64,000 bases of DNA from Amanita rubescens. Lineage: Eukaryota; Basidiomycota; Agaricomycetes; Agaricales; Amanitaceae. The notes under the pieces are model-generated. The model ran no database searches. It saw only the letters and a program-made list of their open reading frames with translations, and was not told the DNA's origin. Made by a program: the position numbers and the translations under genes. Positions 11,721 through 45,302 of this stretch are shown one piece after another. Positions within the stretch are counted from its first letter, which is position 1. Every line of letters starts with the position of its first letter. The stretch spans positions 124,001 through 188,000 of the forward strand of contig WION01000055.1 in the NCBI GenBank assembly GCA_015039365.1. The letters are read 5' to 3'.

Positions 11721-12047
11721 TGTCAAGCCCCTGTTTTACTCCTTGATACGCCGCATGCTTCGTGCATGTACTGACTCATGTACCCTATACCCTATGACAT
11801 AGTATGACTCATACCCCATACCCTATGACTCATACCCTACGCCCTATGTAGTATATAAGTAACGTATATTGTAGTAGGTACCCTAAGCAACAAGCTAGTC
11901 TTTCCTTGGACAGCTCGGAGCTCCTCCCCTCTCAACTTTGCCCTGAACCTCAACGGTTCTTGTATTCGCCCTCACTGCTTGACACGGTCAGCAGTAGCCT
12001 AGAGTGATTGAGTCTTGTGTTGTGTAGCCTGTCTAAGGCTCGTGACA
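11721..12047 (+). repeat. 5' LTR of the gypsy element
   Basis: Begins TGTCAAGCCCC and ends GGCTCGTGACA, matching 17715-18041 except at 11974. The U3 part holds a run of diverged CCCTATGACTCATA repeats; a TATA box lies at 11852. Confidence 0.97.
11852..11858 (+). promoter_or_regulatory. LTR TATA box
   Basis: TATATAAG lies 33 bases before AAGCAACAAGCT (11885), which would be the RNA 5' end if the element self-primes. The same site is at 17846 in the 3' LTR, pointing at the GTPase gene. Confidence 0.65.
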
Positions 12048-12049
12048 TA

Positions 12050-12061
12050 AGCTTGTTGCTT
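12050..12061 (+). promoter_or_regulatory. Self-priming primer-binding site
   Basis: AGCTTGTTGCTT begins two bases after the 5' LTR and is the exact 12-base complement of AAGCAACAAGCT at 11885-11896 inside the LTR. That site lies 33 bases downstream of the TATA box, where transcription should start. In Tf1/sushi elements the first bases of the RNA fold back and prime reverse transcription; this arrangement fits that mechanism and no tRNA end is needed. Confidence 0.75.
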
Positions 12062-12349
12062 TTCTTCACACCACTCACCACGAATTCCCTACGAATTTTC
12101 CTTGCTATCGCCCTGATAGCACAGCTCACATACCTTTACCTTGTAGCAGTTTATATTGCACAAGTACATCAACAACTCTACACAACCCCAAACACCCGTT
12201 AAACCATGGCCCTTCCAGCTGCGTTAACCGCCATCGCGCTGGCAGGATTCACTTACATCATGAGATGAAACAGAATACAGGTTGTCCAACCAACCTTTGA
12301 CGAAACCGGAAACATCATTGGAGCAACCTCAGCAACGGCCGTACCAACA

Positions 12350-13543
12350 ATGGAAACTATTGCAACAGAGACGGAAGACGCGACTATTGCCGCAGCCGCA
12401 ATGGGAGCAAATATTGCAAATGTTATAGAACAATTACGGGTACAGAACGAGAACTTCCAACGGCAACTGGCACAGCAACAACAGGAGTTTGAAAGACAAC
12501 TCGGACGAGAACAACGAGCCGCAGAACGAGCCGACAGGGACGCCGACAGGCTCAGAACACGACCACCGGAACTAAAAATTGAACCTCCGGAACACTACGA
12601 AGGCGAACCGGCAGAAATCGATTCATGGCTCAGAAGGATGAATTACTACTTCGTCCAAGTAAGGTTAACGGATGACATCGCACGGGTCACATATGCGATC
12701 CAACGAATCAGGAAAGGAAAAGGAAACCGAGCATCGAATTGGGCAAATGGAAAAATAGGAGAAATTGCACAAAACGATGAAGAAAGGATCAGGTTCGCTG
12801 CAACTTATCCCGGACGAACCTGCACGCATTATCAAGCGTGTACGGAAGTACCGGCAGAGGAAGCAACGGCTGAACACCCGGCATGGGAGAGATACGAATT
12901 CATCCACAAGCCACCTTTCATGAACTGGAACACATTCGCAGAGGAAGCAAGACAATACTTCCTAACAACGGAAACACGCGACGAGGCCATAAAGAAACTT
13001 CGAGAATTGAAACAAGGAGATAAAACCATCGAAGAATATATCATCGAATTCAAAGGATGGGCCCAACTCTCGGGTTTCGACGAGATCGCACTGATCGATC
13101 AATTCAAGAAAGGTGTCAAAGTTGGAGTAGGCCGAAGGGTAATCGAATTAGGAAACCCAGGAGACGGTAGCGCGCCAGGACAACTCCAAGCGTGGTACAC
13201 CAGGGCTACGGAAATAGAAAAACAATTCCGAGAAGCCGAAAGGTACTATGGCAAACGAGAATTCAAAGTTACAAGAACAAACGCGCAAGCCGGACCAAGT
13301 CAACCAAAAAAAGAAACAATCACGGTCAAAGTCAAAGACGAAAATGCAATGGATGTGGACCAAACCCCGACAACACGACCTCCGCCCAAATGTTATAATT
13401 GCGGAAAGATAGGCCACATCGCGAAATATTGCAAGGGGAAAACCGTGATTAGAAGACAAGCCGTAGGAGATTACTTCGGATCAATGACCGAAGAAGAAAA
13501 GACGGAAATGAAAGAAAAGTTGGGTTTTGTCAAAGATCAATGA
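12350..13543 (+). CDS. gag: Gypsy Gag
   Basis: A 397-residue structural protein that would form the particle and bind the element RNA. The N-terminus (residues 20-70) is a Gln/Glu/Arg-rich coiled coil. The retrotransposon gag fold follows around residues 80-270 (EIDSWLRRMNYYF, FAEEARQYF, GDKTIEEYIIEFKGWAQLSG). A single CCHC knuckle, CYNCGKIGHIAKYC, is near residue 350. The frame is intact. Its stop overlaps the next start as ATGA at 13540-13543, so the protease frame may be reached by re-initiation. The start at 12350 is the first ATG giving the full gag region; the leader from 12048 is untranslated. Confidence 0.92.
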   Translation: METIATETEDATIAAAAMGANIANVIEQLRVQNENFQRQLAQQQQEFERQLGREQRAAERADRDADRLRTRPPELKIEPPEHYEGEPAEIDSWLRRMNYYFVQVRLTDDIARVTYAIQRIRKGKGNRASNWANGKIGEIAQNDEERIRFAATYPGRTCTHYQACTEVPAEEATAEHPAWERYEFIHKPPFMNWNTFAEEARQYFLTTETRDEAIKKLRELKQGDKTIEEYIIEFKGWAQLSGFDEIALIDQFKKGVKVGVGRRVIELGNPGDGSAPGQLQAWYTRATEIEKQFREAERYYGKREFKVTRTNAQAGPSQPKKETITVKVKDENAMDVDQTPTTRPPPKCYNCGKIGHIAKYCKGKTVIRRQAVGDYFGSMTEEEKTEMKEKLGFVKDQ

Positions 13544-14280
13544 AGGATAGTCCCTCTTCGTTGATCAAAGATCGGTGTATTTATGAATCTCTAGTACCTT
13601 CCGAATATGTATCCCTTGAATCAATAATATACGAGGTGAAACAAAAGGAAGGAAAGATTCGAAACACATCGATAAGGGACAAAACAAACAAACTCAGAAA
13701 CTCGTCATCGGCATGGATGATAAGACAATTATGGAAATACCCGGAACAAGGAGTCACGCAACTACGAACGTTCGCACACCAAACCTTTAGAGAACAAATT
13801 GATGAAGAATTAATCAACAAAATCAATGATCTCGAAGAAGAAGAAGCGATCTGGTATCTGCGAAAACTCAGGGAACCACAATGGATCGGAGCATCAGGAC
13901 ACAGAGAGATGGACATACGAGTCATCCTCACCACTCTGGATACAGAAGAAAGCTTCGATACCATAGCGTTAATCGACAGCGGATGTATGATGTCGGCAAT
14001 ATCCAAACAATTCGTTGAGGAACAAAAAATCAACACAACCAAATTACCACGAGCAATAACCGCTACCAACGCCGACGGAACATTAAACGTCGGAGGAAAG
14101 ATAACGGACATGGTTACAATCAAAATGAGAATTTACGACCATGAAGAAACGTTAGAACTAGCGGTGGTAAATATTGGAAAGAAAGACATATTCCTCGGAC
14201 ACGACTGGCTGGAACATCATAACCCAGAAATCGAATGGCGGAAAGCTCAAATAAAGTTCTACATTCGACCAATTACCACC
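13540..14280 (+). pseudogene. pol: Gypsy Pol, protease part
   Basis: This frame opens at the ATG overlapping the gag stop. The aspartic protease is recognised by FDTIALIDSGCMMSAIS (active site DSG, about 13960-13990), VGGKITDMV and DIFLGHDWLEHHNPEIEW (about 14190-14235). The frame stays open to 14418, but similarity moves to another frame at about 14285 (LPPRRAWDHAIEL). The usual linker of many tens of residues between protease and RT is missing here, so a deletion with a frame change is likely. That is based on the family's normal spacing, not on a computed alignment. Confidence 0.75.
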
Positions 14281-14284
14281 AAGA

Positions 14285-15700
14285 AGGGCATGGGACCATG
14301 CAATCGAATTAACGGCAGGAGCAAAAATGGTAGATTGCAAAATATACCCGTTAAATCCAGAAGAACAAAAACAGTTGGACGAATTCCTAAAAGAACAATT
14401 AGAAACAGGAAGAATTAAACCAAGTAAATCGCCCATGGCGTCGCCATTCTTCTTCGTAAAGAAGAAAGACGGGAAATTACGGCCAGTCCAAGATTATCGG
14501 AAATTAAACGAAATGACTATCAAAAACAGATACCCATTACCTTTAATCTCGGAATTGATCGACAAGTTATCCGAAGCAAAGTACTTCTCGAAGATGGACG
14601 TAAGATGGGGATACAACAACATCAGGATCAAAGAAGGAGACGAATGGAAAGCCGTGTTCCGAACAAACCGTGGATTATTCGAACCACTGGTGATGTTCTT
14701 CGGATTAACCAATTCACCGGCAACGTTCCAAACAATGATGAACGATATCTTCAGAGAAGAAATTGCTGAAGGATGGGTCGTAATTTACATGGATGACATC
14801 CTGGTATTCTCAAAAGATAAAAAAGAACATCAAGAGCAAGTCCGAAGGATCCTCGAAAAATTACGACAACATCAACTTTCCTTAAAAGCGGAGAAATGCT
14901 ACTTCGAAAAAGAAGAGATTGAATTCCTAGGGCTAATCATTTCAGAAAAAGGAATACGGATGGACCCTAATAAAGTAAAAGCGATAGCCGAATGGCCAAC
15001 GCCAACAACGAAAAGGGAACTTCAACAATTCCTTGGATTCGTCAATTTCTATCGAAGGTTCATTAAAGGCTTTGCGAAAATAGCAAAAGCATTAACGAAA
15101 CTAACGGGAAAAACCGAATGGTTATGGACGGAATTACAACAAGAAGCATTCGAAGGATTAAAAAAGGAAATTGCTTCCGAAAGGGTCCTCATCATCCCTA
15201 AACCGGGAAGACCCTTCCGAATGGAAACAGATGCATCGGATTTCGCAATCGCAGCAATACTTTCTCAACTCGACGACGACGGAATTTGGAAGCCCGTAGC
15301 ATTCATTTCGAAAGCGTTAAACGACGCAGAAAGAAATTACGAAGTATACGACAAAGAAATGCTAGCGGTAATGCAAGGATTCTATGATTGGGCTCACTAC
15401 CTTAAAGGAACGGAAACAGTAACAGAAGTATTGACAGATCATCAAAATCTTACATACTTCCGAAAACCGCAAAACCTGAATAGAAGACAAGCCCGATGGA
15501 TCATGGATCTACAAGAATATAACTTTGTCATAAAACATCGATCAGGGAAAACGAATACTAAAGCCGATATACTATCCAGAAGAGCCGGACATCCAAAAGG
15601 AGAAAACGACAACGAAGGCGTCATTCTCTTAAAAGAAGATGTATTCGGAAAAATCGAAATCAGAATAGACGACGAAAACTACGAATGGTTAAGTATTTGA
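14285..15700 (+). pseudogene. pol: Gypsy Pol, reverse transcriptase and RNase H part
   Basis: RT motifs are in order: SKSPMASPFFFVKKKDGKLR, VQDYRKLNE, FSKMDVRWGYNNIRI, FGLTNSPATFQ and the catalytic VVIYMDDILVF (about 14780), then the thumb with QFLGFVNFYRRFIKGFA. RNase H follows with METDASDFAIAAIL (15220), AVMQGFYDWAHYL and LTDHQNLTYF. The catalytic residues are all visible. A TGA at 15698-15700 ends the frame, but the same frame continues straight into integrase, so this is a single nonsense change. Confidence 0.9.
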
Positions 15701-17362
15701 CAAGAAATTCGCAACACACATCGACGATATTTCGACAAACAAGTAACAAAGGGAATAAAAGAAAAAGACCCCGATTTCAAATACGACACTCTCGATCAAT
15801 GTTGGGAATGGAAAGGACGAATATATGTACCGGCAAAACCGGAAATCCGAGAAAGAGTAATCAGTTCAAACCATGATGTATCGACGGCAGGACACCCGGG
15901 AGTCGCAAAAACTCTGGAATTGACGACAAGAGGATTCTGGTGGCCCAACATGAAACGGGACATTGAAACATACATCAAAGCATGTCATCAATGCCAAACC
16001 AACAAACCAGATCGACAACCCCGAGCGGCGCCATTACAGCCAAATGAAATTCCATCAGAACCATGGGCAGTAATTAGCGTAGACCTTATCGGACCTCTGG
16101 TGCCGTCGAAAGGAAAAGATATGATTTTGGTAATAGTTGATCGATTCTCAAAGAAGGCTTACTTTATCCCATGCAATACGACGATAACATCGCAAGGAGT
16201 GGCAAACCTTTATCGGGAACACATATTCAAAGAACAAGGATTACCAAAAAAGGTTATATCGGACCGGGGAACGCAATTCGTATCCGGATTTATGAAGGGA
16301 TTGTACCAAACGTTAGGAATAGAAGCAAATCCGTCAACGGCGTATCATCCACAAACGGATGGACAAACGGAACGAGTAAATCAAGAATTGGAAGAATACC
16401 TGCGAATGTACGTGAACGAAAAACAAGACGATTGGACAGATTGGCTTCCCATAGCTCAATTCTGCCACAACGATCGACGACATTCGGCGACAGGATTTTC
16501 CCCTTTCATGATTACGACAGGAAGGAATCCATTCAAGGGACAGGAAGGAAAAACAGAAACGACGAACCACTCGGCTGCGGAATATATTGAAAAGTTCAAA
16601 GAAACGTGGAAAACGGTAAAAGCAAACTTGGAACAAGCCGCCGAAAGGATGAAGAGACAACACGACAAACACGTCAAACCATCCCGACGGTACCAACCGG
16701 GAGATCGAGTATATCTAGATTCGTCCAAAATTAAAACAACAAGGACATCGAAGAAACTCGACGCAAAGTTCCACGGACCCTTCAAAGTAATTTCCGAAGT
16801 AGGGAAGTCAGCATATAAACTGGAATTACCACCGACGTGGGGGATACACGACGTCTTCCACGAATCGAAACTTAAACCAGTTTACGAACCACAATTCCCG
16901 GCGCAGCAAGAAAACGAACCACGGCCGCCACCGGAAATTATTAACGGACGTGAAGAGTACGAAGTAGAAACCGTGAAAGGGGTAAGAAAAACGAGGCAAG
17001 GAAAATGCTTCCTTGTGAAATGGAAAGGGCTACCCGAAGAAGAGAATACCTGGGAACCGGAAGAACACATGGAAAACGCGAAAAAGGCAATTAAAGAATA
17101 CTATAAGAAGAACCCTTCAGCGTTACGGCAAAACAAACCCCTTCCCCTCCTCCCCCCATCTGCCCTATCTCCAACCCCCTCTGGCCCGCCGACACCGACA
17201 CCCCCACACCTCCTTCCACTCTATGTTCCACACCCGCGTCTATATGGATGGAATGACAACGCCTTCGACGAAGAATACCGACGGAAACTCGAGAATAACT
17301 GGCAACGCTGGAAGAGCGCACGCGAAGAAGCGAATTCATCGCAAGGACCCACACCAGTTTAA
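15701..17362 (+). pseudogene. pol: Gypsy Pol, integrase and chromodomain part
   Basis: In the same frame as RT beyond the TGA at 15698. It has the HHCC zinc domain (HPGVAKTL ... ACHQCQTNK, about 15890-16000) and a DDE core (SVDLIGPL at 16075, ISDRGTQF at 16256, and the Glu in QTDGQTERVNQELEEYLR at 16350). A GPF module (FHGPFKVISEVGKSAYKLEL) and a chromodomain follow (EYEVETVKGVR ... FLVKWKGLPEEENTWEPEEH, about 16960-17070). Chromodomains in these elements steer integration towards marked chromatin. The C-terminal tail is Pro-rich and ends at 17362. No ATG follows the TGA before the zinc domain, so translation would depend on readthrough. Confidence 0.9.
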
Positions 17363-17714
17363 AGTGACTGATACCTGTAGCAACAAGATCCAGTACGAAC
17401 AGGGAGAGAAAAAGATAGAAACAACGAGGAATCGGGAGAGGACGCACCTAGGCAAGATCATGGGTGACGCCTCAAACGAGGAATCGCGAGATGTCAACGA
17501 GCATTCGGTGGACCCTGGAGACGGACCCCTACGTGGAAAGTCGAAAGGCCTAACCTTAGCGTTCGATAGTAACCTCCCGTCGGCATTGGACGCAGGTCTG
17601 GTAACGGGTAGAGATGAAGGAGCATCAGGAAGAATGTGAGTGCCAATTGTCATTTCGTCGAATTTTTGGATCCCTTCCAGTTCGTCTGGAATCCGAACCT
17701 TGAAACGGAGGCTA
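17363..17714 (+). other. Gypsy 3' untranslated region
   Basis: Between the integrase stop and the 3' LTR. A short purine-rich block before 17715 (gaaacggaggct) may be the polypurine tract. Nothing else recognised. Confidence 0.5.
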
Positions 17715-18041
17715 TGTCAAGCCCCTGTTTTACTCCTTGATACGCCGCATGCTTCGTGCATGTACTGACTCATGTACCCTATACCCTATGACATAGTATG
17801 ACTCATACCCCATACCCTATGACTCATACCCTACGCCCTATGTAGTATATAAGTAACGTATATTGTAGTAGGTACCCTAAGCAACAAGCTAGTCTTTCCT
17901 TGGACAGCTCGGAGCTCCTCCCCTCTCAACTTTGCCCTGAACCTCAACGGTTCTTGTATTCGCCCTCGCTGCTTGACACGGTCAGCAGTAGCCTAGAGTG
18001 ATTGAGTCTTGTGTTGTGTAGCCTGTCTAAGGCTCGTGACA
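17715..18041 (+). repeat. 3' LTR of the gypsy element
   Basis: Same 327 bp as the 5' LTR with G instead of A at 17968. Its TATA box (17846) lies about 310 bases before the GTPase start codon, on the same strand. Confidence 0.97.
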
Positions 18042-18156: not shown

Positions 18157-21100
18157 ATGGCAGCTACAACTGGTCCACCTTCTTTGAGTAGGCTAATTTA
18201 TGTGACTCAGCATTGCTAATCCTTGACTGACACATATCAGATGCAGATGAGACACATGTTCAAATACTCATGAAACGCTATCTATGCCCACATTTTCGCA
18301 TCCTTATCATTGGAAGGGCTAATGCAGGTAAGACAACTATCCTTGAGAAGGTTTGTGGTGTAGCAAAGGGGACAAAGTCCATCATATATGACAAGGATGG
18401 TAAGTCAGTCTGAATTTTGTGCATCCTTTGACTTGACTAGTATTGTTTCTTGTAGGTAATAAGCTTGAACAGTCTGTGATCCATTTGATGCCATCAATTG
18501 AAGTGAGTCAGATAATGATGTATGGATGTACCCATTCACATGCAATGATAACAGAGAGGCCTGCATGATATTGAGCATCAGATTACATACCCTGGAAGTA
18601 ACTTTATCTTCCATGACTCTCAGGGTTTTGAAGCTGGTTCAACGGAGGAATTGGAGATTTCTTGGAAGTTGATTGAAAAGAAGGCTGCAGAAACTGAGCT
18701 GAAGAATCAGCTGCATGCAATTTGGTATCTTGCTTTATCCCTGTACAATATTGTCTGATCTGGTTTCCTGCAGGTACTGTATACCCATGGATAGCCCTCG
18801 TCCCATTCTATCTGCAGAGCTTGAATTCTTCAATAAAGGGACAGGCAAAGGTAAGTCCTAATGAATTTGTATACCATCTTGTTGGGTTTGGAGAGATTTT
18901 TTACCTTTCCAATGGCTAAATTGCCACAAAATCAACTTACTAACTAGCAATATTTCCTTTACAGTTCCTTTGGTGGTTATATTCACCAAATTTGATGGTC
19001 AAATAACCACTGAATTTACCAACTTGACTGATGCAAATAATGAAGATAAGTGGGAGAGAGCCAGGGAAAATGCTGAAATCACTTTTCAGGAAGTTTATCT
19101 TCCTAAAGTTTTGGATGCCAAATATCCTCCCAAGGTATATGTGCAATTGGAAGGTGAGAAGATTGAGGATTTCTTCCCAAAAATTGGGAGTAATGTTGTT
19201 TCATAGACATGGATTTACCAGAGACGAATTGTGCTGAATTAACTCAGAAAACTGCTGATGCAATAGATGATGACACCATACAACAGCTGTTTGTTTCAAC
19301 ACAAATGAACAATCTTGACCTTTGTGTTATATCTGCACTTCAGTGAGGATCACATTCAAAATCTCACTTACTGACATTGACATTGTTCAGACATGTTCTG
19401 AAACATGAAAATTGGACATGGCATCATGTCATTCTCATAGTTTTTGGAAAATTTCCACATTTCTGGGTATGCATTTTTGTCAAACTGCACATTGGCATAG
19501 GAAAATTCAAATGGCAATAGGTCCACAGGGAGCCTGTAGGTGGCCTTCATATGGAATGATAAATGCTTCAAAAGTTCATCAGGAGGTAAGTAACACTCCA
19601 ATGCCTTCACATGAAAACAAGATAAGTCATGTGTCAGATGGGTGGTAAACGACTGAGTGAAGCACAGGTCAGTTGTCACCATATTCTTGGTGGTGGGATC
19701 TGATAATATTAATATCAGTGGGTTAGTGACATTGCACCAGCATAGATTTGATATATTTCTCATGACAACAGTTTGTGAGTAATGCTTCCCTTTGTGATCA
19801 GCAGTCTTGTCCCATAATCTACAGGAAGTGAGTGACATGACTCAATTTTGGTTTTGGGTAAATGATTGATGGCACATCATATGACCAATAGCAAGTGAGT
19901 TAATCAATCATTGTAAGCAGACTTGTCAATCCAGTCTTCCATGGTCAGGGAGTCAGTAATACAACACTGCTTCACACTGCATCTGACCTGCTTAAAGAAA
20001 GTAAGCAACATTGATGTTTGTGCAGCTTATCAGACATAACTCAATGAACAACAGAAAGTTGGTGACATCCTGGTATCTGAAAGAGAGTCTCAATAAACTT
20101 GATTGGATTAATAACAGGAAGTAAGTCAGATTTTCTTTCTGTCTGCTTATAAACATTACATCTTGTCTCAAAACAACAGACAGTAAATATTTCTCCTATT
20201 CAAAGCTTCTTCTTCACAAGCTATTGGAAAACAAACAGCATGTATGTGATCCTTTTGTGAGATGTGAATTCATCATATGAAATACCATGGCAAAAGAGAG
20301 TTAGCATTGTTTTCTTTTTCCCCAATGCATGATGCTAATTTTATTCTAAAAGGAAGTGAGTAATGCTGGCCACATTGCTAGAGGATAATTTGGACACATT
20401 TTGTTTTACAGATTGTGAGTGATATTACAAATTTTGTGAAAAGAAGTGAATCCACATCTTTTCTTATGGGTTTAGAAGGTTAGCAGGATGTCATGCTGGT
20501 TTATTGTTTCAAAGATGACCTTATCAAAATTTTGCCTGTGGCCAACAGTATGTAAGTAATGTTGGAAATATTTCTGAAAAGCTGCTTTATGTATTTTTCC
20601 CCAACTGACAGAATGTGAGGAACATAGAAGGTTGTGTAGAAGGCAGTCCAAGTCTCATCACATCTTTTCCCATGATCAACAGGGAGTGAGTGACATTGGA
20701 CATTTTTTGAAAGGCAGTCTCATCACATCTTTTCCCATGCCCAACAGGTTGTGAGTGACATTACACATTTTGTGAAAGGCAGTCTCATCACATCTTTTCC
20801 TATTACCAACAGGGAGTGAGTGACATTGCACATTTTGTGAAAGGTAGTTTCATCACATCTTTTCCTATGACCAACAGCTTGTGAGTGATATTGCACATTT
20901 TGTGAAAGGCAGTCACATCACATCTTTTGCTATGACCAACAGGTTGTGAGTGACATTGCAAATTTTGTGAAAGCCAGTCTCATCACATCCCTTTCTATGA
21001 CCAATAGCAAGTGAGTGACATTGCACATTTTGTGAAAGGCAGTCTCATCACATCTTTTACTATGACCAACAGGGAGTGAGTGACATTGCACATTTAGTTA

Positions 21101-24100
21101 AAGGCAGTCTCATCACATCTTTTGGTGTGACCAACAGGTTGTGAGTGACATGGCACATTTTGTGAAAGGCAGTCACATCACATATTTTGCTATCACCAAC
21201 AGTCTGTGAGTGACATTACACATTTTGTGAAAGGGAGTCTCATCACATCTTTTCCTATAACCAACAGGCTGTAAGTGACATTGTACATTTTTTGAAAGGC
21301 AGTCTCATCACATCTTTTGCTATGACCAACAGCTTGTGAGTGACATTGCACATGTTGTGAAAGGCAGTCTCATCACATCTTTTCCTATGACCACAGGGAG
21401 TGAGTGACATTGCACATTTTGTGAAAGGCAGTCTCATCACATTTTTTCTATAACCAACAGGTTGTGAGTGATATTGCACATTTTGTGAAAGGCAGTCTCA
21501 TCAAATCTTTTGCTATGAATAACAGGTTGTGAGTGACATTGCGCATTTTGAGAAAGGCAATCACATCACATCTTTTGCTATGACCAACAGCTTGTGAGTG
21601 ACATTGCACATTTTGTGAAAGGCAGTCTCATTGCATATTTTTGTATGACCAACAGCAAGTGAGTGACATTGCACATTTTGTGAAAGGGAGTCTCATCACA
21701 TCTTTTCCTATGACCAACAGCTTGTGAGTGATATAGCACATTTTGTGAAAGGCAGTCTCATCACATCTTTTTGTGACCAATAGCAAGTGAGTTACATTGC
21801 ACATTTTGTGAAAGGCAGTCTCATCACATCTCAACAGTTTGTGAGTGATGTTGCACATTTGTGTAAGGTAGTCATGTCACTATGACCAACAGCAAGTGAG
21901 TGACATCATACATTTTGTGAAGGGCGGTTTCATCCAGTACTTTACCCTCCCCCACGCTTCCTGGCAGGATCCTGGCTGACTCCATGGAATCCACACGGAA
22001 TCCACATGGATTCCACATGGATTCCTTGCAAAAAGGAAATTTCTGTGGAAATTCTACCAGGATTCCATGGAGTCCATGTGGATTCCATGCTCAGTCCAGG
22101 CACATTCCTGGCAACAGGCAAAAACATGATTTACACCTGAATTCCTGGTAGACTGTCTGGAATCCATGTGGACTCCGTGGATTCCATGTAGCAATATATG
22201 CATTAAAAAATATGGAAAAAATTCCAAAAAATATAGAAAATTCATAAGATCAAACCTATATAAAATTTATTATCTTAGGACACTTGGATCAGTATCAGCT
22301 AACCATACAAAAGCCACAGACTATTGCTATATGACATTTTGCCATCTATGACTAGCAGTTGGAGTGTGGCAGTGGTTGCTGATGACCTGACATAACATTT
22401 CAGAGCGTCAGAGGTCATGAATAGATGTGAGAAGGTTGTCATGAGGGTTCTGTAATCACTGTGTGGGGGTCTTTGAAATTTGGAGATGGATACATCAGTG
22501 AGCAGTGGTTAGCAGAATATTGACAGCTAGTGATCAATGGTGGCCGCTGACATGCCAGCAATTCAAGTTATCAATATGGTCTACCTCATTACCATCACAA
22601 GGAACCACTTGCAACCACCTGCCACCTCCCTCTCAAACCTACCAGCTTATGCATACCTCCAGCAACCACATCTGTTAGCTGAAAAGGCTGGGCATCTAAG
22701 CAGACTTTAAGGATCTCAATTATCAGTAGTACAGAAGTGACCTACTGGATGACCATCAGCTAACACAGCAAAAGTCTGATTGCATCTGATTCTGTCTGAC
22801 ACACTGATTGTCTGACTGTGTCTGACTGCCTGACCATCTAAGAGACACTGATGGATGCTGATACACTAATTGTCTGACTATCTGACTATCTGAGAGACAC
22901 TGTTGCATAAGTTGTCTGATTGTCTGACTGTCTAAGGGGCACTATTGCAAACTTGAGTTCTTTCAATATATGTATCCATACTAGTTTTACATAGCCCTAG
23001 TCTGTCTCATTGTATCACTTGTTTACTAAACCATTGATTTGCCAGATGGTTCTAGTGTGGAAGCTTAGTAGGTACAGCATTTTGCAAACACACCAGTCAA
23101 ATGAGGGAAACAACTACAAAGTTGCAAAGGAGTAGGCTAGGTCCTGATTGTGCTGCAGAAATAAATACAGTAAAGTTGTGTACACCCCACTACATTATAC
23201 ATATCAGATTGCTGACCACAGGTACATACTTGGAAATCTGGGCCACTGCTGCACACGGCAGGTCCGAGGCCAATTATCAAGTGAGTGTGCACATGATTGT
23301 TCGGGAATTACCAGCGCTTACCAAAAAGGAAATAATCGCGTCTCAAGTTTCGGAATAAAACCGAGGCCTTTGTTTCACTCGGCCTCAGAATGTAACAATG
23401 CATGTGTCAGCAAAGTAATCAAGGTAGAGTAAGCAAGGATAGGCAGCATTCGGATGAATGAGGAGGCTTGTCTGCTAAGCATGATTGTGTAATGTGGGAG
23501 TCCATTACTGTAACAGCCACCATTCCCACCAAAACAGTATTTTGAAAATATCTTGTGTTTGGTTGTGTTTTGCACTGCAATTCTTGAAGAGATGTGATCA
23601 CATAATGTTTTTGGATTTTTGACAATTTTTTGGATTTTTTCAATTTTCTGTCACATCTGAAAAAGTGTTTTGCAAATATCTCATGTTTGACTTTGTTTGG
23701 CACTGTCATTCTTGTATATTCTGAATCACACAATCTAGGTGCATCTTTTTTGTCACAGTCACATTTACATGTCACACACCTCATGTTGTCACAAATTCTA
23801 TAAAAGGAAATCATATTATCTTATCTGTGATCTTATCTTATCTACATCATCATACTGCTATTTAAGCTTACCTAAGCTTACCTATGAGATCATACATATA
23901 TCTAATCACTATCTATCTATCCAATCTTATCACTCCCCTCCCCCCCTGTCCTCGAGGAAGGGGGGGGAAGCTGGGGGATATGTGGTACATGCCCTCTCCT
24001 TATATACCTGTGGGCTGGCGCACAGACCAAGTGGCCTGTCACATGACCATGGGAATCAGGAGTCCATGTGGACTCCTGAGGACTCCTTGTGCTGAAAGTC

Positions 24101-26042
24101 CTTGTATGTCAGCATTATGCAAACCAGGCAGAAATGTACCTGGAATCCACGGAGTCCATGGAGTCCATGTGGATTCCTTGTCACTCCTGTTCCAGGCAAA
24201 TTCCTGAGATTCCGTGGAATATGCATGGATTCCATGCACTTTTTTTAGTGTGTTCTGGGCCATTTGGACCATCTTGAAATTGCAAGGAATCCACGTGGAT
24301 TCCATGGAACTTCCACACGGAATGCAAGGAATCCATAAGGAATGAGTGGGGGAGGGTAAAGACCTCGTTTCATCACATCTTTTCCTATGACCAACAGCTT
24401 GTGAGTAATGTTGCACATTTTGTGAAAGGCAGTCTCATCACATCTTTTCCTATGACCAACAGCAAGTGAGTGACATGGCACATTTTGTGAAAGGCAGTCT
24501 TGCCACATCTTTTGGTATGACCAACAGCAAGTGAGTGACATTGCACATTTTGTGAAAGGCAGTCTCATCACATTTTTTCCTATAACCAACAGGTTGTGAG
24601 TGACATTGCACATTTTGTGAAGGGCAGTCACATCACATCTTTTGCTATGATGAACAGCTTGTGAGTGGCATTGCACATCTTGTGAAAGGCAGTTTCATCA
24701 CATCTTTTCCTATGAGCAACAGCAAGTGAGTGACATTGCACATTTTGTGAAAGGCAGTCCCATCACATCTTTTGGTATGTCCAACAGGGAGTGAGTGACA
24801 TTGCACATTTAGTTAAAGGCAGTCTCATCACATCTTTTCATATGACCAACAGGCTGTGAGTGACATTGCACATTTTGTGAAAGGCAGTCACATCACATAT
24901 TTTGCTGTCACCAACAGTTTGTGAGTGACATTGCACACAGCCGTCTCATCACATCTTTTCCTATGACCAACAGCAAGTGAGTGACATTGCACATTTTGTG
25001 AAAGGCAGTTTCATCACATCCTTTCCTATACCAACAGCTTGTGAGTGACATTGCACATTTTGTGAAAGGCAGTCTCATCCCTTATTTTGACCAACAGCAA
25101 GTGAGTGACATTGCACATTTATTTTGTGAAAGGTAGTCTCATCACATCTTTTCTATGACCAACAGTCTGTGAGTGACATTGCACATTTTGTGAAAGGCAG
25201 TCTTGTCACTATGACCAACAGCATGTGAGTGACATTGTACATTTTGTGAAAAGCAGTTTCTCACATCTTTTCCAATGACCAACAGCTTGTGAGTAATATT
25301 GCACATCCTGTGAAAGGCAGTCTTGTGGCAGTCCAAGTCTCATCACATCTTTTCCCATGATCAACAGGAAGCAGTGAGTGACATTGCTCATTTTTTGAAA
25401 GGCAGTCTCACTGCATCTTTTGATATTACCAACAGGGAGTGAGTGACGATGCACAATGATTTTGTGAAAGGCAGTCTCATCACATCTTTTCCTAGGACCA
25501 ACAGGAAGTGAGTGACATTTCACATTTTGAGAAAAGCAGTTTCATCACATTGTTCCTATGAACAATAGCTTGTGAGTGATATGTACATTAGAATGTTTTA
25601 CTCTATCTCATTGATAGTCTGAAATCTTCTCCATTTTTGGAGACAGGGAAAGGCTGTTTGCAATCCAGGTATCTTTGTTCTTTTATTATTTGGGTAGTAC
25701 ACAGCTGATGCAATGCATCAAGCCTACTGATTGCCAGATTTTAGTTTGTAAATTATTCCTTTTCATATGTGGTATTTATCCTTAAAACTTCAAGCAATTA
25801 TCATTATTGCCAAGCTATCCTTTTGGATTGATGCATCACTTCAGCTATCGGTAGCACAAGCCTTGTATCAATACAAGCAAAAAAGCTACATTCAGAAACT
25901 AAAGACTGACATTACTGCTGACCTTCTGCACTATGGTCATAAAGATTTGGTCACATTACTCTATAGGAAGGTGACTCACATTGAAGGTGGGTCCTTTGTC
26001 TACTCATGCACTAGTACTTATGAACAATTTATGGCAGGGTGA
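18157..26042 (+). CDS. P-loop GTPase-like protein with giant intron array
   Basis: Spliced by eye from ATG 18157. Exons carry a Walker A motif (IIGRANAGKTTILEKVCG, 18300-18355), the switch-like FIFHDSQGFEAGSTEEL (18605), HAIWYCIPMDSPRP (split by an intron at 18725), VPLVVIFTKFDGQI (18965; the TKxD-type base-specificity motif), the FVSTQMNNLDLCV block (19290) and VFGKFPHFW (19466). Introns of about 50-100 bases fit GT-AG rules with preserved phase. After FPHFW the next recognisable exon is at about 25775-26042 (AIIIIAKLSFWID ... LLYRKVTHIEGG), a segment that in this basidiomycete family usually follows closely. The six kilobases between hold the mini-intron array and a hAT-like insertion. The exact 3' acceptor is uncertain. 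Function unknown; no other catalytic domain is seen. Confidence 0.75.
20615..21934 (+). repeat. Homogeneous 65-bp array, left block
   Basis: Twenty donor sites, from 20686 to 21896, mostly exactly 65 bp apart. Each unit starts GTGAGTGACATTGCAC, has a T-rich tract (CATCTTTTCCTAT) and ends GACCAACAG, i.e. a typical 62-base fungal intron, plus a 3-base spacer. Spacers: GTT 5, GGA 4, CTT 4, CAA 4, and one each of TCT, GCT, TTT. The last unit is split by the hAT-like insertion. Confidence 0.95.
21935..24366. mobile_element. Non-autonomous hAT-like element inside a mini-intron
   Basis: The element is 2432 bp and is flanked by the 8-bp repeat GTTTCATC (21927-21934 and 24367-24374). Its ends share CTTTACCCTCCCCCAC as inverted repeats within an imperfect 21-bp terminal repeat. 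Subterminal regions (21960-22195 and 24055-24335) are packed with GGAATCCA/TGGATTCC and GGAGTCCATG palindromic motifs in both orientations. No transposase reading frame is visible inside. Excising the element with one GTTTCATC leaves a mini-intron of exactly 62 bases (39+23), which confirms the boundaries. Confidence 0.88.
22200..24040. other. Interior of the hAT-like element
   Basis: AT-rich, with no convincing reading frame on either strand. 22780-22940 holds loose TCTGACTGTC repeats and 23930-23965 a C/G homopolymer-like palindrome. The interior may contain older nested debris that I cannot resolve. Confidence 0.5.
24375..25600 (+). repeat. Homogeneous 65-bp array, right block
   Basis: Nineteen donor sites from 24401 to 25572, continuing the left block after the insertion. 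Spacers: CTT 5, CAA 5, GGA 2, one each of GTT, GCT, TTT, TCT, CAT, GAA, and one 6-base GAAGCA. Units in the second half vary more in length (56-85 bp) than those near the insertion. Confidence 0.95.
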
Positions 26043-27029
26043 AGTACCCAGCATGATTATCAGGTGATTCATTGTCTGCATTGCCTTTGCATTGAGCTCA
26101 TATTCATTTGTACATAGATCACTTCCAATCATATGCCCCCCCTTGGTTATTTATCCATGTGTCTGAGCCTTTCTTTCTAATGTAGCCATATATATGGTCA
26201 TTTCCATAAGTTCAGTGACAGGTTTGACTCTGTGGCTGAGCGGGAGGTCATCAAGGCCACCTCTACTTCGAAGACGACGACAACTAGCTTCTTTCTGCCT
26301 CATCCTCTCGTACTTATAACTGACAACCTTATTGTCAAGGCCTTGGCGAAACATCTTGCATCGTTTGTTTTTACGAGTGCTCCCCCCCTATCCCCATGCT
26401 CTTTCTTCATTCTATCCCGACTCGTAGGATTTTCCCTCCCCTACCCCAAGTCGCTTGCCTCTCCTCTCGTATAAATACCACTCGGTTGTTACTACCTCCA
26501 TGCCAAATGGACATTATTATTGATGCCGTTTTAAATCACGCGTGATAAGTAAGCTGAAGTTCAATGCCTAGGTAACGGCATTTGGCTGCGCAGCTCTTCT
26601 GGTTAACGTCCTTGGAAACTCCACGAATCGACTTTCTCTAACGACTTCTTAGAACTTCGCTCCTACGACTCGGGACTTTCGACTTTACTCCGATGTACGC
26701 ACTATTGTCTGCCCTGTTTGAATGACGACGATGACGACATTGACATAGGTTCCGAGGCCGAAACGATGAGGATGCTGGTACTAAATGGCGTAGTCGTCTA
26801 TAGCAAACCGTTGTAATCGATTCATCGATATCCGTCTGCGATTTTGTGCTTTAGATTCGCTCTACTTCGTCTTGAGCAACTTGGATTGGTCTAGATAAGG
26901 TTTCTTCGGAATACTCACAAACGGACAATAGACGATACGATTTCCAGGAATACTATATGTACAGAATGTTCACGGTCTGCTATGGATGACCGATGAGCAT
27001 CCCAAACAAAAGGATTGAGGTACGAACAC
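26043..27029. other. Intergenic region after the GTPase gene
   Basis: The AT-rich character of 18-26.1 kb ends near 26.13 kb and ordinary composition resumes. A promoter-like TATAAATA occurs at 26472 with no gene seen downstream on the + strand. No coding region supported. Confidence 0.4.
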
Positions 27030-28546
27030 TCACTCTACAACACAAAAAAGTTTCTTCTCAAGATCGATGTAATCTTTGTACGGCGGCAGATCAATGCGGT
27101 TAAAGCCAGTATGGCTCTTTGGAGATTCTGACGGGTCACCCCATTTCGCGACTGTAAACCGTCTTTGCAGCTCTTGAAAACCTTTGATAGAGACTCGCGG
27201 TGATCCAGTGGTAAACCTCAAAAGACGCGATTGACGTTCTGAGGACCAACTCCGCACGCATTGCCAGAACCACTGAATCACGTCATCGTCGCTCTCATAC
27301 CCATCGTATACCGTATGTTTCGCCCAATCGTCGCTACCGCATTGAAAAAGGTTAGCGCTCAGTCGCTCCTTGACGTAGAACTTGGACTTACACATCAATA
27401 TCCGACGTGCCACCGATAAGGAGCTTCAATTCATCTTCGTCGAATACCCTGATTAGATCCAATGGGATGATTTCGCTGAAGCCAGCCATGAACGCGTCGA
27501 ATCGATCTTGGACGCGTTTACAAAGGCAATACTCGACGAGCAAGTCCACGTATTCCTTCTTATTCTCTTCGGTTACTTTGATATCGTAACCCCCAGGCTT
27601 AAGCTCAAATGTTTTGATTCCGCGAAGTCGTTCTTCTGTGACTGTAAAATTCGAATCGAATTTACCTGTGATGTCGTTTTCACTGTATCACAACTAAATA
27701 AACGGGTAATGATGCGCGTGGGAGCGCAACTCACAGTATCCGTGTCAACCGGCCATACAACTCGGTATCGATGCTTTCCAAGTCTGCCAGGTTGACTTTT
27801 TTGTTAAGGATCATCTTGTAGAAGCTGGTGGTAAAGGAGGCGTCCAAGAGGGAACGATGAAAAATACATAGGCCGATGCACCGGCCGACGAACTTGAGAT
27901 GCTCCGGGTTCGTATCTTTAGCATCGGATGAATATTCGAATAGGGAATATGATTGAGTGGATATGTCGCGCGAGAGTAAGTAGAAAAATTCCCTGGAAAA
28001 GTCAGGCGCTCGGGGAGACGACTCGGAAGCGGAGTCCAGATCATCTGATTCGCCCTCAAACATGATCAAGAGTCGACGTTTCAAATCTTCCGGAGTTTTT
28101 TGCATAATTTCGGCAAAACTATCTTCAAAGATGTGACTTCGCCTGACTTTGACCCGACATAGGCCGCCTTCCTGCGCGCGCATAACAGGTTGGCTTCTGA
28201 AATAAATGCGTTTCCTGAAAAATTGCCGCGTAAAGTCGTGAAGACGACTTGGCAATGAAAGACGAGGATCGTCCCAAGTCGTTATTTTTGCAATATGGTC
28301 GACGAAGTAAACTTTCCCTTGTGAATTGACGCGCATTTCCCAGCCTGGGGGTAAATGGCCGGGCTCGGCAGCGCTTTCAAGCACGTTTGGGAGTGGCTTC
28401 AAGGACTGAGGGTTGGACCAGTGTGTGGTGCGAGTGTTGTGATCAACGTAATAGCGTTGACCTGTTGGGGTGAATCGCTCCTCCCAACCCTTTGGAATGT
28501 TTTCATCGTCAGTCACAGTATCCGCCACTTGACATTGCATCAGAAG
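27030..28546 (-). CDS. Rsp5/NEDD4-like HECT ligase, short, catalytic Cys replaced by Gly
   Basis: Two WW domains open the protein (IPKGWEERFTPTGQRYYVDHN...W and LPPGWEMRVNSQGKVYFVDHI...W), followed by the HECT N-lobe (KVRRSHIFEDSFAEIM, EFFYLLSRDI, FVGRCIGLCIFHRSLLDA) and C-lobe (ELKLLIGGTSDID, VIQWFWQCVRSW, LLRFTTGSPRVS). Two introns (about 27680-27735 and 27330-27390) splice in phase and keep the frame open. NEDD4-type ligases attach ubiquitin through a Cys in SHTCFNR; here the codon at 27105-27107 gives SHTGFNRIDLPPY. The C2 domain and one or more WW domains at the N-terminus are absent, and the conserved C-terminal tail (…GFGQE) is missing. The protein cannot form a thioester as read. It may be a regulatory decoy or a young pseudogene. 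The start near 28546 is a guess among several ATGs just after a GA repeat. Confidence 0.8.
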
Positions 28547-28643
28547 TTGGTTGTGAGAGAGAGAGAGAGAGAAGACGGCAGTGACTATATTTAGTAGCAT
28601 CATAACTATATCGGGCCGATTCGGCTACGCTACTCCGTCGCCC

Positions 28644-30537
28644 ATGACACGGACGTCGGATGAACAAGTTCCTCTTCTACAGGATACTACTATTGAACAA
28701 ACACAGTTTCCATGGTTACAATTCTCGATCATCTTTGCATTGAAGACTTCAGAATTCCTGACGTCAACCACTACACATCCGTTCATTCCAGATGTAAGTA
28801 CGCTCTCTGAACCCCGTCATTCATTTATACTGATCATCATTGTTCTTACTAGCTAGTACGACATGTCGGGATAACAAACGGAGAGAGGAACGTCGGATAC
28901 TATGTTGCTTTGCTGGTACGAAGGTCTTCTCCCTCAGTGTATGTCATCGCTGAAGGAGATGATTCCGTCAACAGCTATCCACGTTCTTTGCTGCTGAGAC
29001 AGTTACAACGTTCCTTTTCTCTCACCTTTCGGATCTGGTAGGCCGCAAACCTGTTCTTCTCACTTGCGTAATCGGCTTGTCGATATGCATCTGCGGCTTT
29101 GGGGTTTCGATGACGTTCTGGATTCTAGTCCTGTGGTTCGTACTATGTTCAAATCAATACAAAATTTCTGATGCTTCGATAGGCAAGCTATAATGGGCGC
29201 ACTGAGTCAGCATTTTATTGGAAATGCCGTCGTGGTTGAACTTTGACGTGTATCTTAGACGGGACAATGGGCGTAGCGAAAAGGTTCGTCATCGTCATCT
29301 CAATGCTCCCTGTTACTGATTCGATGAGGCAGCATGTTGGTAGAAGCAGCCGATTCAACTCATCTCGCTCGAGTGCGTGCCAGATTTAGTTCAGAACATC
29401 ACGTTCTCATTGGGACGTAGGCAATAGGCTATTTTGGCACCTCTGCATACGTTGCGAATATGGTGGGTCGTATTTCCATTGTACTACCTCACGCATGATT
29501 GATTATATGCGCCACAGATTGGGGGTAAGATCGGCGGTTCACTGGCAAGACCAGTCGAGCAATATCCACACCTGTTTGGTTCCAGTGAATTTCTCAAGAA
29601 ATACCCTTACTTTCTTCCTTGCGCCGTCTCCTCAATTTTACTGTTCATCTCCTGGCTATCCGGAGTTGCTTTCCTGAAGGAAACCGTAGCGAAGCCATTA
29701 CCAATTTCTAGCATACTCAAACGCAATGCACGGGAAGAGACCTCGGAAGAGGGAACCGAAAGCGTCAGAAAACCACCATTACGTGCCATCTTCGTACGCC
29801 CAGTCATAATCGCCGCAACCAACCTTGCAGCCCTGGCTCTAGTCGACAGATTCTACATCGCCGCCGACGCTCTCTATCTCTCGACTCCAATCAAAGACGG
29901 CGGCCTCGGCTTTTCCGTAAACGCCATCGGTACTTTCTCTTCTACCTCTGGAACGGTCGTATGCGTATCTCAGCTATTCTTCTTCGCACCCATACACGCC
30001 AACTTGGGCTCGAAATATCTATTTATAATTGGTCTATCTGCGGCGCTTCCGCGATTTGCGTTGTGGCCTGCGATGAATTGGATTGCGAGGAACGACGGAT
30101 ATATGGGTTGGGTGTGGTTCGGGCTTGGATTTCAGATGTGTTGTTCGGCGTTTATTCAGTTTGCGTACGGTAAGTCGTTGCGTATTCTATCTACATGATG
30201 CCACGTCATAGGCTGTATATAGGTGCGATTTGGGTTTTGATTGCTCGATCTCCTGGAAACCGCAGTTCCTTGGGTGCGGTAGTGGGATTCTGTCATGTAC
30301 GCTGCTTCCAAGTTCTTCCGATTTCGATACTATGAGCTCAACTATTAACAGGTGGGGAATAATGTAGTACGCACCATAGGCTCTGCAGTATCAAATTCGC
30401 TCTTTTCGCTGTCGATTGATAAAGGGTATCTGGGTGGATATTTCGCATATTTCATCTTCATCTGTGTTACGATCATAGCGCTGTGCGCGACATTGTTATT
30501 GCCCAGAGACGAGATTACGCAGGAAAGGAAGCGCTAA
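28644..30537 (+). CDS. MFS transporter 1
   Basis: A multi-exon major facilitator of the drug/proton-antiporter-like type found in expanded numbers in mushrooms. The start at 28644 gives MTRTSDEQVPLLQD; TM1 contains FPWLQFSIIFALKTSEFL. Motif A between TM2 and TM3 reads LSDLVGRKPVLL. The loop before the central region is IGGKIGGSLARPVEQYPHLFGSSEFLKKYPYFLPC, then a central hydrophilic loop with acidic residues and TM7-12 (AIFVRPVIIAATNLAAL ... ALPRFALWPAMNWIAR ... GYLGGYFAYFIFI). It ends at 30537 with a short Arg/Lys tail. At least eight short introns are needed. Substrate unknown. The HECT gene starts about 100 bp away on the other strand, so the two may share a promoter region. Confidence 0.85.
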
Positions 30538-44616: not shown

Positions 44617-45302
44617 TTATGCAGTGACTGTGCCAACCTCACCTATGTTACCATACTTATTTTTATATGTTTTAACGGCATAATAAAGGCCGATCGCTGA
44701 TCCTGCTAATCCTACGAGAGTGCTGATGATGGCGATTATGTCAGAGTGGTTCAAAGAGTTGTGCCCGAGCATTGTGGAACTGGTAGGAGTTGTCGGATTG
44801 GAAGTGGTACTAGTACTAGTAGGAGTTGTCGGATTGGAAGTGGTACTAGTAGGAGTTGTCGGATTGGAAGTTCCTGTTACAATGGTCAGCACTGTTGAGT
44901 GGATACGGAGGATGGTATTATACCTTGAGTATTAGGCGATGTCTGCAGGTTGAGGCTTGGGGTTGCCAACAACTGCGCGCAAAACCCATTCAAAATGGAT
45001 GTCACTGATGCGACGCCGTCCGTTTGAGATCTGCATGCAGTGATAGCCACAGAGGAAACAGCTGCTGGCGCTGCAGTGAACTGGTTGCAAGCGCACCTCC
45101 AAGTGTCACAACCCACATCACAAGGTATACAGTTGCCCGGATATCCAGGGTATGCACAGCTTGGCACACAGTAACTGTCAAAGGCGTTCTGCACACAGGT
45201 CCTCTGATCCCCCATTCCTGGCCAGTTGGACGGGTCTGTCATCTGCGCCCTCACTGCAAGCGCAACCACTGGCATCAACGAAACATAGACAGGGGAGAGC
45301 AT
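44617..45302 (-). CDS. Secreted Cys-rich protein with stalk and membrane anchor (copy A)
   Basis: Exon 1 (45302 to about 44935) has a signal peptide (MLSPVYVSLMPVVALAVRAQ), then a domain with about ten Cys (RTCVQNAFDSYC, CIPCDVGCDTWRCAC, SILNGFCAQLL), CFEM-like in size and spacing but not a firm match. The intron starts GTATAATACC and ends CATTGTAACAG. Exon 2 codes a Ser/Thr/Pro stalk made of NPTTPTST-type repeats, a transmembrane helix (IIAIISTLVGLAGSAIGLYYAV) and a short Lys-rich tail. It would sit at the plasma membrane with the Cys domain outside on a likely O-glycosylated stalk. Relatives: 48355-49043 and 57593-58104. Confidence 0.75.

Follow-up and report, generated by a model that had tools for sequence, protein, structure and literature searches.

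A chain of probable single-codon exons between very short introns in a GTPase gene family of Amanita rubescens

We analysed a window of 64,000 nucleotides from Amanita rubescens (contig WION01000055.1, positions 124,001–188,000, in a 75.7-Mb assembly), in which a GTPase gene on the forward strand is interrupted by a long chain of introns set three bases apart. Our spliced model of this gene has 70 exons and 69 introns, all of them GT–AG and only three longer than 75 bases, and its frame is open over 457 residues, has no internal stop and terminates on TGA. The 5′ part (18157–19466, + strand), which rests on the open spliced frame, homologues and Pfam, consists of eight exons of 31–189 bases and seven introns (exons 18157–18187, 18241–18399, 18456–18502, 18555–18724, 18774–18850, 18965–19153, 19207–19342 and 19391–19466). 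It starts at 18157 and closes in phase 0 with ..VFGKFPHFW. The sequence contains the P-loop GRANAGKTT, and its match to Pfam MMR_HSR1 (PF01926) lies barely above the cut-off (22 bits vs 21.9); a profile search of solved structures gave weak GTPase matches only, the best being GTPase Der with E 0.00011. A protein search with the GTPase found proteins from JGI contigs of about 1–2 kb (P numbers below) that read through the intron positions of A. rubescens on these short contigs and are therefore presumably cDNA.

Downstream of the 5′ part, on the same strand, lies a 15-base exon VHREP (19521–19535), in place of which several sister copies have a 12-base exon of the VDRE- or VDRV-type, followed by the single-codon exon GAG (19583–19585) and a 30-base exon MGGKRLSEAQ (19638–19667), the cognate of MANKQLSEAQ in P0032. 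Sixteen successive single-codon exons, WFEQGKKETHREIKYN, then span 19719–20614 between diverged introns of 46–70 bases; their codons are TGG TTT GAA CAA GGA AAA AAA GAA ACA CAT AGA GAA ATT AAG TAT AAT and read W F E Q G K K E T H R E I K Y N. The remainder of the chain is a homogeneous array with similar introns, mostly of 62 bases. Its first part (20683–21895) holds 20 single-codon exons and its second (24398–25571) 19 mini-exons, one of them of six bases (GAAGCA, 25368–25373), and the two are separated by a transposon-like insert of ~2.4 kb in one array intron (about 21935–24366). Directly after the array come the exon SEIFSIFGDRERLFAIQ (25618–25668), cognate of the ELFSVFG stretch of P0022, the exon PTDCQILV (25723–25747), cognate of ATACQVL in the same protein, and the final coding exons ..SIIIIAKLSFW..KVTHIEG stop (25795–25986 and 26038–26042, span 25795–26042). 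The single-codon chain is in phase 0, and the frames upstream and downstream of it agree.

A first-pass annotation of the window had counted 17 diverged and 39 array junctions, and our exon-by-exon reconstruction arrives at the same counts (GAG at 19583, TGG at 19719 to AAT at 20612, and the array at 20683–25571). Its description of an invariable three-base distance holds for all 17 diverged exons and for 38 of the 39 array exons, the six-base exon being the departure. The chain is also less continuous than had been described, as a normal 30-base exon (19638–19667) stands between GAG and TGG and the ~2.4-kb insert had gone unmentioned. The recurrence of AG, three bases and a GTRAGT-like donor is borne out: between 19467 and 25750, a YAG stands exactly three bases before 45 of the 48 GTRAGT donors, compared with 0 of 43 elsewhere in the window. 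Recursive-splicing sites are 0-base junctions, and none of the 48 donors stands at spacing 0.

The gene belongs to a large family. With a 1-kb DNA query from the 3′ half of the gene, at least 40 of 122 candidates scored as copies, counting that of the window itself, and with a 241-base query from its last part at least 40 of 104 did so. Some copies are identical or nearly so, and these are perhaps alleles or assembly duplicates. We analysed stretches of 20 copies (L009–L028) and of eight more (L029–L036); those of L017, L022, L024 and L027 run to the contig end. Single-codon exons number about 55 in the window copy and up to 87 in the sister copy L025. GTRAGY donors stand at the three-base spacing in 27/39, 27/36, 42/47, 37/45 and 66/71 cases in L028–L032, in order, and in 56/65, 48/52, 39/45 and 31/35 in L033–L036. 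Among five A. rubescens gene models that we read, four stop no more than ~30 residues beyond FPHxW and the fifth, P0071, passes over the triplet stretch; such genes are thus easily missed by annotation.

We also parsed the copies by dynamic programming, with donor and acceptor matrices, a branch-point term and no preference for exon length; the matrices were trained on these same loci, and shuffled controls were scored with the same matrices. Exons of three bases made up 87 of 89 exons in L025, 52 of 56 in L017, 59 of 66 in L030 and 44 of 53 in L031 (46 of 59 when a different end point was set). After dinucleotide shuffling, these stretches gave 0–4 exons of three bases among 35–66 (completed runs, of 8 each: L031 6, L030 7, L025 8, L017 8), and reverse-complement controls gave 1–2 among 33–50. 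Certain longer exons were misread in some copies, and no sensible parse was obtained across the inserts of the window copy and L009. In L031, by eye, some chain introns appear to have GC donors (GCAAGT), and two junctions seem to carry CAA instead of the acceptor CAG.

The order of the triplets is matched in protein sequence. The window exons read, in order, VHREP-E-MGGKRLSEAQ-W-F-E-Q-G-K-K-E-T-H-R-E-I-K-Y-N; at this place P0002 continues FPHLWVDRAVTNEQLSETKWFEKGKKESDREIEYDGG and P0032 continues FPHFWVGRDEMANKQLSEAQWFEHGKKDTDKQIVYDGE. The first 15 triplets from W to Y (WFEQGKKETHREIKY) align without a gap, 11/15 being identical to P0002 and 9/15 to P0032. The decoded strings of L010, L021, L025 and L029 score higher against both proteins than any of 300 shuffles of their codon order, while that of L017 is clear of its shuffles only against P0032 (57 vs 43; 57 vs 56 against P0002). 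In the distant copies L030 and L031 a homogeneous array is absent; they contain about 60 introns, which by eye have diverged from one another, and most of the exons between these are still single codons. The string decoded from L031 can be aligned with P0051 over its whole length (KHNDIDWFQEAIKAAGIERE..KERDKRQQFVKRKI vs KHNEIDWFESADDAAGKERE..KERDHRRDFVEREI), in an alignment for which we supplied a few codons by eye and which takes in an initial ordinary exon of six residues. With the 46 strictly parsed codons alone the score is 65, where 300 shuffles reach 44 at most and 55 reads taken at other offsets no more than 32. L031 also scores 47 against P0023, above its shuffles (39). A comparison with P0113 gave high scores at other offsets, which we judged due to a histidine-rich stretch, and its rows were ignored. 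Four JGI proteins, P0022, P0023, P0051 and P0056, run in frame to the C-terminal motif.

In a comparison of the W-to-Y block that covered 21 of 29 stretches, the cutting pattern having failed on the other eight, the 15 codon columns are ungapped. Per site, pairs of copies differ by 0.079 at the first, 0.037 at the second and 0.000 at the third codon position, and by 0.111 in the introns. The triplets have the length of microexons and, at the same time, homology to proteins from intronless contigs, and from these comparisons the triplets of the chain are very probably translated. The suggestion that the spacers are real 3-base exons, coding a peptide codon by codon, is accordingly strengthened by three observations: the triplets align with such proteins, the flanking frames agree, and the same layout persists in paralogues whose introns have diverged.

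Several points weigh against this reading. The cDNA origin of P0002, P0022, P0023, P0032, P0051 and P0056 is inferred from intronless contigs of 1.4–1.9 kb, and the genes behind them may have another intron layout. The string of L031 exceeds its shuffles against P0051 and, more weakly, P0023, and not against seven other proteins, and that of L030 exceeds shuffled order against 0 of 9. P0002 and P0032 depart from the family consensus after the conserved block and never reach the C-terminal motif, endings that could reflect incomplete splicing. A protein search with the spliced C-terminal half alone returned 0 of 430 candidates at E 0.01, though P0051 has this C-terminus. In the 21 copies the third positions of the 15 W–Y codons are invariant despite variation at positions 1 and 2, a pattern not expected from plain selection on the protein. 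The variable strings (20 examined) show no helical periodicity at 100 degrees beyond that of shuffled order. The parse of L020 contains 4-base exons and that of L027 one TGA codon, and the window copy bears two transposon insertions, one upstream of the start codon and one in the array, and may be inactive.

Nor is the lack of stop codons usable as evidence. The earlier remark that no spacer is a stop codon is correct, yet avoidance of stops cannot be separated here from avoidance of splice sites. In 714 array codons, TAA occurs 0 times (20.5 expected) and TGA once (18.1), and the non-stop TTA also occurs once (18.2) and TGT 0 times (11.7), the expectation assuming independent columns and many of the compared copies being near-duplicates. 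We therefore rejected stop avoidance as proof of translation, since TTA is avoided as strongly as TAA and TGA: T-N-A between AG and GT makes a GTNAGT donor, so that splicing alone could explain the missing stops.

Within the arrays it is the triplets, and not the introns, that vary. In young arrays the introns are 97–99.6% identical and the codons differ at 33–66% of positions. The mean pairwise difference within an array, intron vs codon, is 0.8% vs 62.6% in L016, 1.3% vs 62.0% in L017, 0.4% vs 33.2% in L026, 1.6% vs 64.8% in L025 and 10.7% vs 59.6% in the window, in a comparison that covered 22 copies. The majority 62-base array intron is the same in 17 of the 22 and one or two bases different in five, while adjacent blocks differ between copies by up to 13%, and its first 35 bases occur exactly 548 times in the genome. 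Near-identical introns at many sites are one mark of introners, and the array introns share this property. A 3-base target-site duplication around each intron was rejected, as 2 of the 38 pairs of adjacent mini-exons in the window array have the same sequence. The proposal that the chain grew by duplication of whole introns survives only in part: the introns look copied and the adjoining codons do not.

L016 and L021 share 98.8% identity across 1450 upstream bases, 99.4% across the W–Y block and 98.9% and 99.5% in two post-array stretches, yet the codons of their arrays match no better than in shuffled order (8 matches vs a shuffled mean of 8.9). Of 15 close pairs, nine stay within the shuffled maximum and six share most array codons: L017 with L019 (34/36) and with L020, the window copy with L010 (33 matches) and with L009, L010 with L009, and L023 with L025 (69). 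Arrays thus seem to be replaced in jumps and to be stable in between. Downstream identity falls to 82–88% in 10 of the 14 pairs with a value, which we traced to DNA beyond the last exon. The proteins P0022 and P0023 are identical at 248 of their first 250 and 87 of their last 92 residues, and after ..NFERNYYVD they have unlike middles of different length.

The codon diversity could come from gene conversion confined to introns, from exchange of whole arrays between copies, or from burst-like writing out of a pool of units. Ongoing hypermutation of the codons is disfavoured because 6 of the 15 close pairs retain most of their array codons, and pure constraint on the introns is disfavoured in that introns diverge freely in old copies. 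Eight codons (CGA CAA GAA GGA CTT TTT GAT GTT) account for 81% of 339 codons in young arrays and 58% of 325 in old ones, where the arrays and the codons were picked after inspection and a few codons of the conserved post-array tail are counted with the old arrays; this smaller codon set of young arrays weakly disfavours replacement of the introns in old arrays. Repeated codon blocks, tried as a sign of block duplication, reach p ≤0.03 in 5 of 20 strings (L016, L021, L026, L031 and L035). Linkage between intron variants and codons is weak (of 18 column tests in L010 two reach p <0.05, as do two of 12 in L025, with no multiplicity correction). Averaged periodicity at 105 degrees is 1.83 where the maximum of 300 shuffles is 1.70, at one of 33 frequencies. 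L032 (G000:C8:75600-81600) has a second array type, mostly of 56-base units (a 53-base intron plus a codon), which is apparently a second amplification, of a shorter intron. The peptide of the L032 array is rich in L, Q, E, R, K and Y.

Taken from sequence comparison, the explanation that we consider highly probable is that the AG-NNN-GT chain consists of genuine single-codon exons, which are spliced in order and translated as a segment of the GTPase. The spliceosome would remove the short introns, mostly of 46–70 bases, and join the triplets in order. Neighbouring introns would presumably be removed one after another, as an acceptor and the next donor lie three bases apart. Each triplet would most likely be a constitutive exon. 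The middle of the mRNA would read WFEQGKKETDREIKY, or a copy-specific version of it, and then the array codons in order. A segment of roughly 55–90 residues, lying after the ..FPHFW with which the G-domain part closes and before the C-terminal part ELFS..IIIIAKLSF, would thereby be translated from one-codon exons. The beginning of this segment (W F E Q G K K E x D R E I K Y) is conserved and the remainder would form a hypervariable linker. The length and letters of this linker would change by whole intron+codon units with the frame kept each time, and because gain or loss of whole units preserves the frame, the linker would be free to change. We infer that the chain is spliced efficiently in A. 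rubescens and that the linker acts as a diversified recognition surface; for function beyond the GTPase, hypervariability in a multigene family suggests recognition.

A further step is more tentative, and we regard it as possible though rather doubtful. The family could be a system of letter-by-letter peptide diversification, in which intron+codon units serve as single-letter type and arrays are written in bursts from about eight codons, by recombination or by templated copying that spreads a master intron without its codon, and give each copy a new linker. If so, a new variable linker per copy would suit a family of receptors or of self/non-self recognition.

Among the rival explanations, the one with the best standing shares its core with ours. 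It takes all triplets as exons and has many of them skipped, so that each gene gives a mixture of in-frame peptides. The young-array introns, at 97–99.6% identity, would be interchangeable, and any skip of whole codons should keep the frame; P0051, however, matches most of the codon string of L031, suggesting inclusion as the rule, at least with diverged introns, and we hold extensive skipping to be unlikely. Far less probable is that the conserved block alone is coding and the homogeneous array is a non-coding satellite expanded within the gene. The array is indeed a tandem repeat, its codon order has no helical pattern, the window copy carries transposon insertions, and P0002 and P0032, which are transcript-like and closest to the array copies, lack a matching C-terminus. 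A satellite of this kind is nevertheless hard to reconcile with triplets that hold their length of three through arrays of up to about 70 units, with variation that falls on the triplet and not on the intron, with a window frame that is open past the array, and with the unlike in-frame peptides that P0022 and P0023 have at exactly this place. Least probable is the first-pass alternative that one long intron is removed stepwise by a short-intron spliceosome, the triplets being splicing relics absent from the mature mRNA: the introns are short, their donors and acceptors are strong and fungal spliceosomes favour short introns, yet this account predicts neither the homology of the ordered triplets to protein sequence nor a constant three-base spacing, and direct joining of the flanks omits a segment present in all four full-length relatives (P0022, P0023, P0051 and P0056).

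Schistosome micro-exon genes resemble the Amanita family in giving variable proteins built largely of short exons in multiples of three. Schistosome micro-exons are longer, at 6–36 bases, and those genes are not known to contain successions of 3-base exons separated by copies of a single intron. Exons of one to three bases are known from Arabidopsis APC11 (PMC4674806), Fusarium CYP621A (PMC12940212), plant microexons (PMC8831610) and Drosophila homothorax (PMC7392893); the 2015 APC11 report gives six bases as the previously smallest constitutive exon and three as the smallest alternative one (PMC4674806). In the excerpts of these reports, such microexons are spliced in and required for the frame, as we propose here, but are single or paired, whereas those of Amanita stand tens in succession, are nearly all single codons, and are hypervariable across a large gene family.

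Introners and introner-like elements (PMC9860276, PMC4457414) are, in the excerpts of these papers, also near-identical short introns in large numbers; the Amanita copies analysed here differ in standing in tandem in one gene family, every three coding bases, without a bracketing 3-base duplication. Stwintrons (PMC12403724, PMC8469720, PMC9024468) and recursive splicing likewise involve tightly packed introns removed in several reactions. Stwintrons, as the excerpts of those papers have it, split a splice-site element, an internal intron lying within the donor, branch point or acceptor of an external one, whereas each of the 69 introns of our model has its own GT and AG, with three bases remaining between chain neighbours. 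The excerpt on the Globodera HYP effectors (PMC11228951) describes a hypervariable centre between conserved in-frame flanks, with variation of unknown origin; there the variable domain is a set of motifs transcribed as a single exon, while in Amanita it does not lie within one exon but is split codon by codon in a dispersed family. A search of the open-licence PMC literature for runs of single-codon exons, Amanita introns and hypervariable genes found no such architecture in titles and the starts of abstracts.

Isolated exons of one to three bases are already known. More than 50 single-codon exons per gene, in a large family and surviving the divergence of their introns, put the capacity of the spliceosome to the test. 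To produce one mRNA, the window gene would require 69 accurate splicing events and L025, by our estimate, about 100, and at three bases apart an acceptor and the next donor can hardly be engaged simultaneously. The architecture also shows how a protein could grow or change one residue at a time with its frame guaranteed, and it raises a sharp question, namely how the introns can remain almost the same when the codons that separate them vary so widely. It also opens intron gain, exon shuffling at the codon level and the evolution of fungal recognition genes to direct tests.

The insert within the window array (21935–24366) has terminal inverted repeats of the TTTACCCTCCCCCAC type and GTTTCATC on both flanks, and by eye we take it to be hAT-like. 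L010 and L011 are ungapped at this place, and the array of L009 has a gap of ~2.9 kb at a different one. Upstream of the gene, an LTR (long terminal repeat) retroelement at 11721–18041, presumably Gypsy-like, has repeat ends TGTCAAGCCCC..GCTCGTGACA and ATTTA on both sides; it is separated from the GTPase start codon by ~115 bases and may have cut the GTPase promoter in two. Downstream, frames on the minus strand at 27000–28650 have WW-domain-like motifs and resemble NEDD4/Rsp5-type ubiquitin ligases. Two related tandem repeats with a core of the GTAGGAGTTGTCGGATTGGAA type lie at 44774–44871 and 48503–48642.

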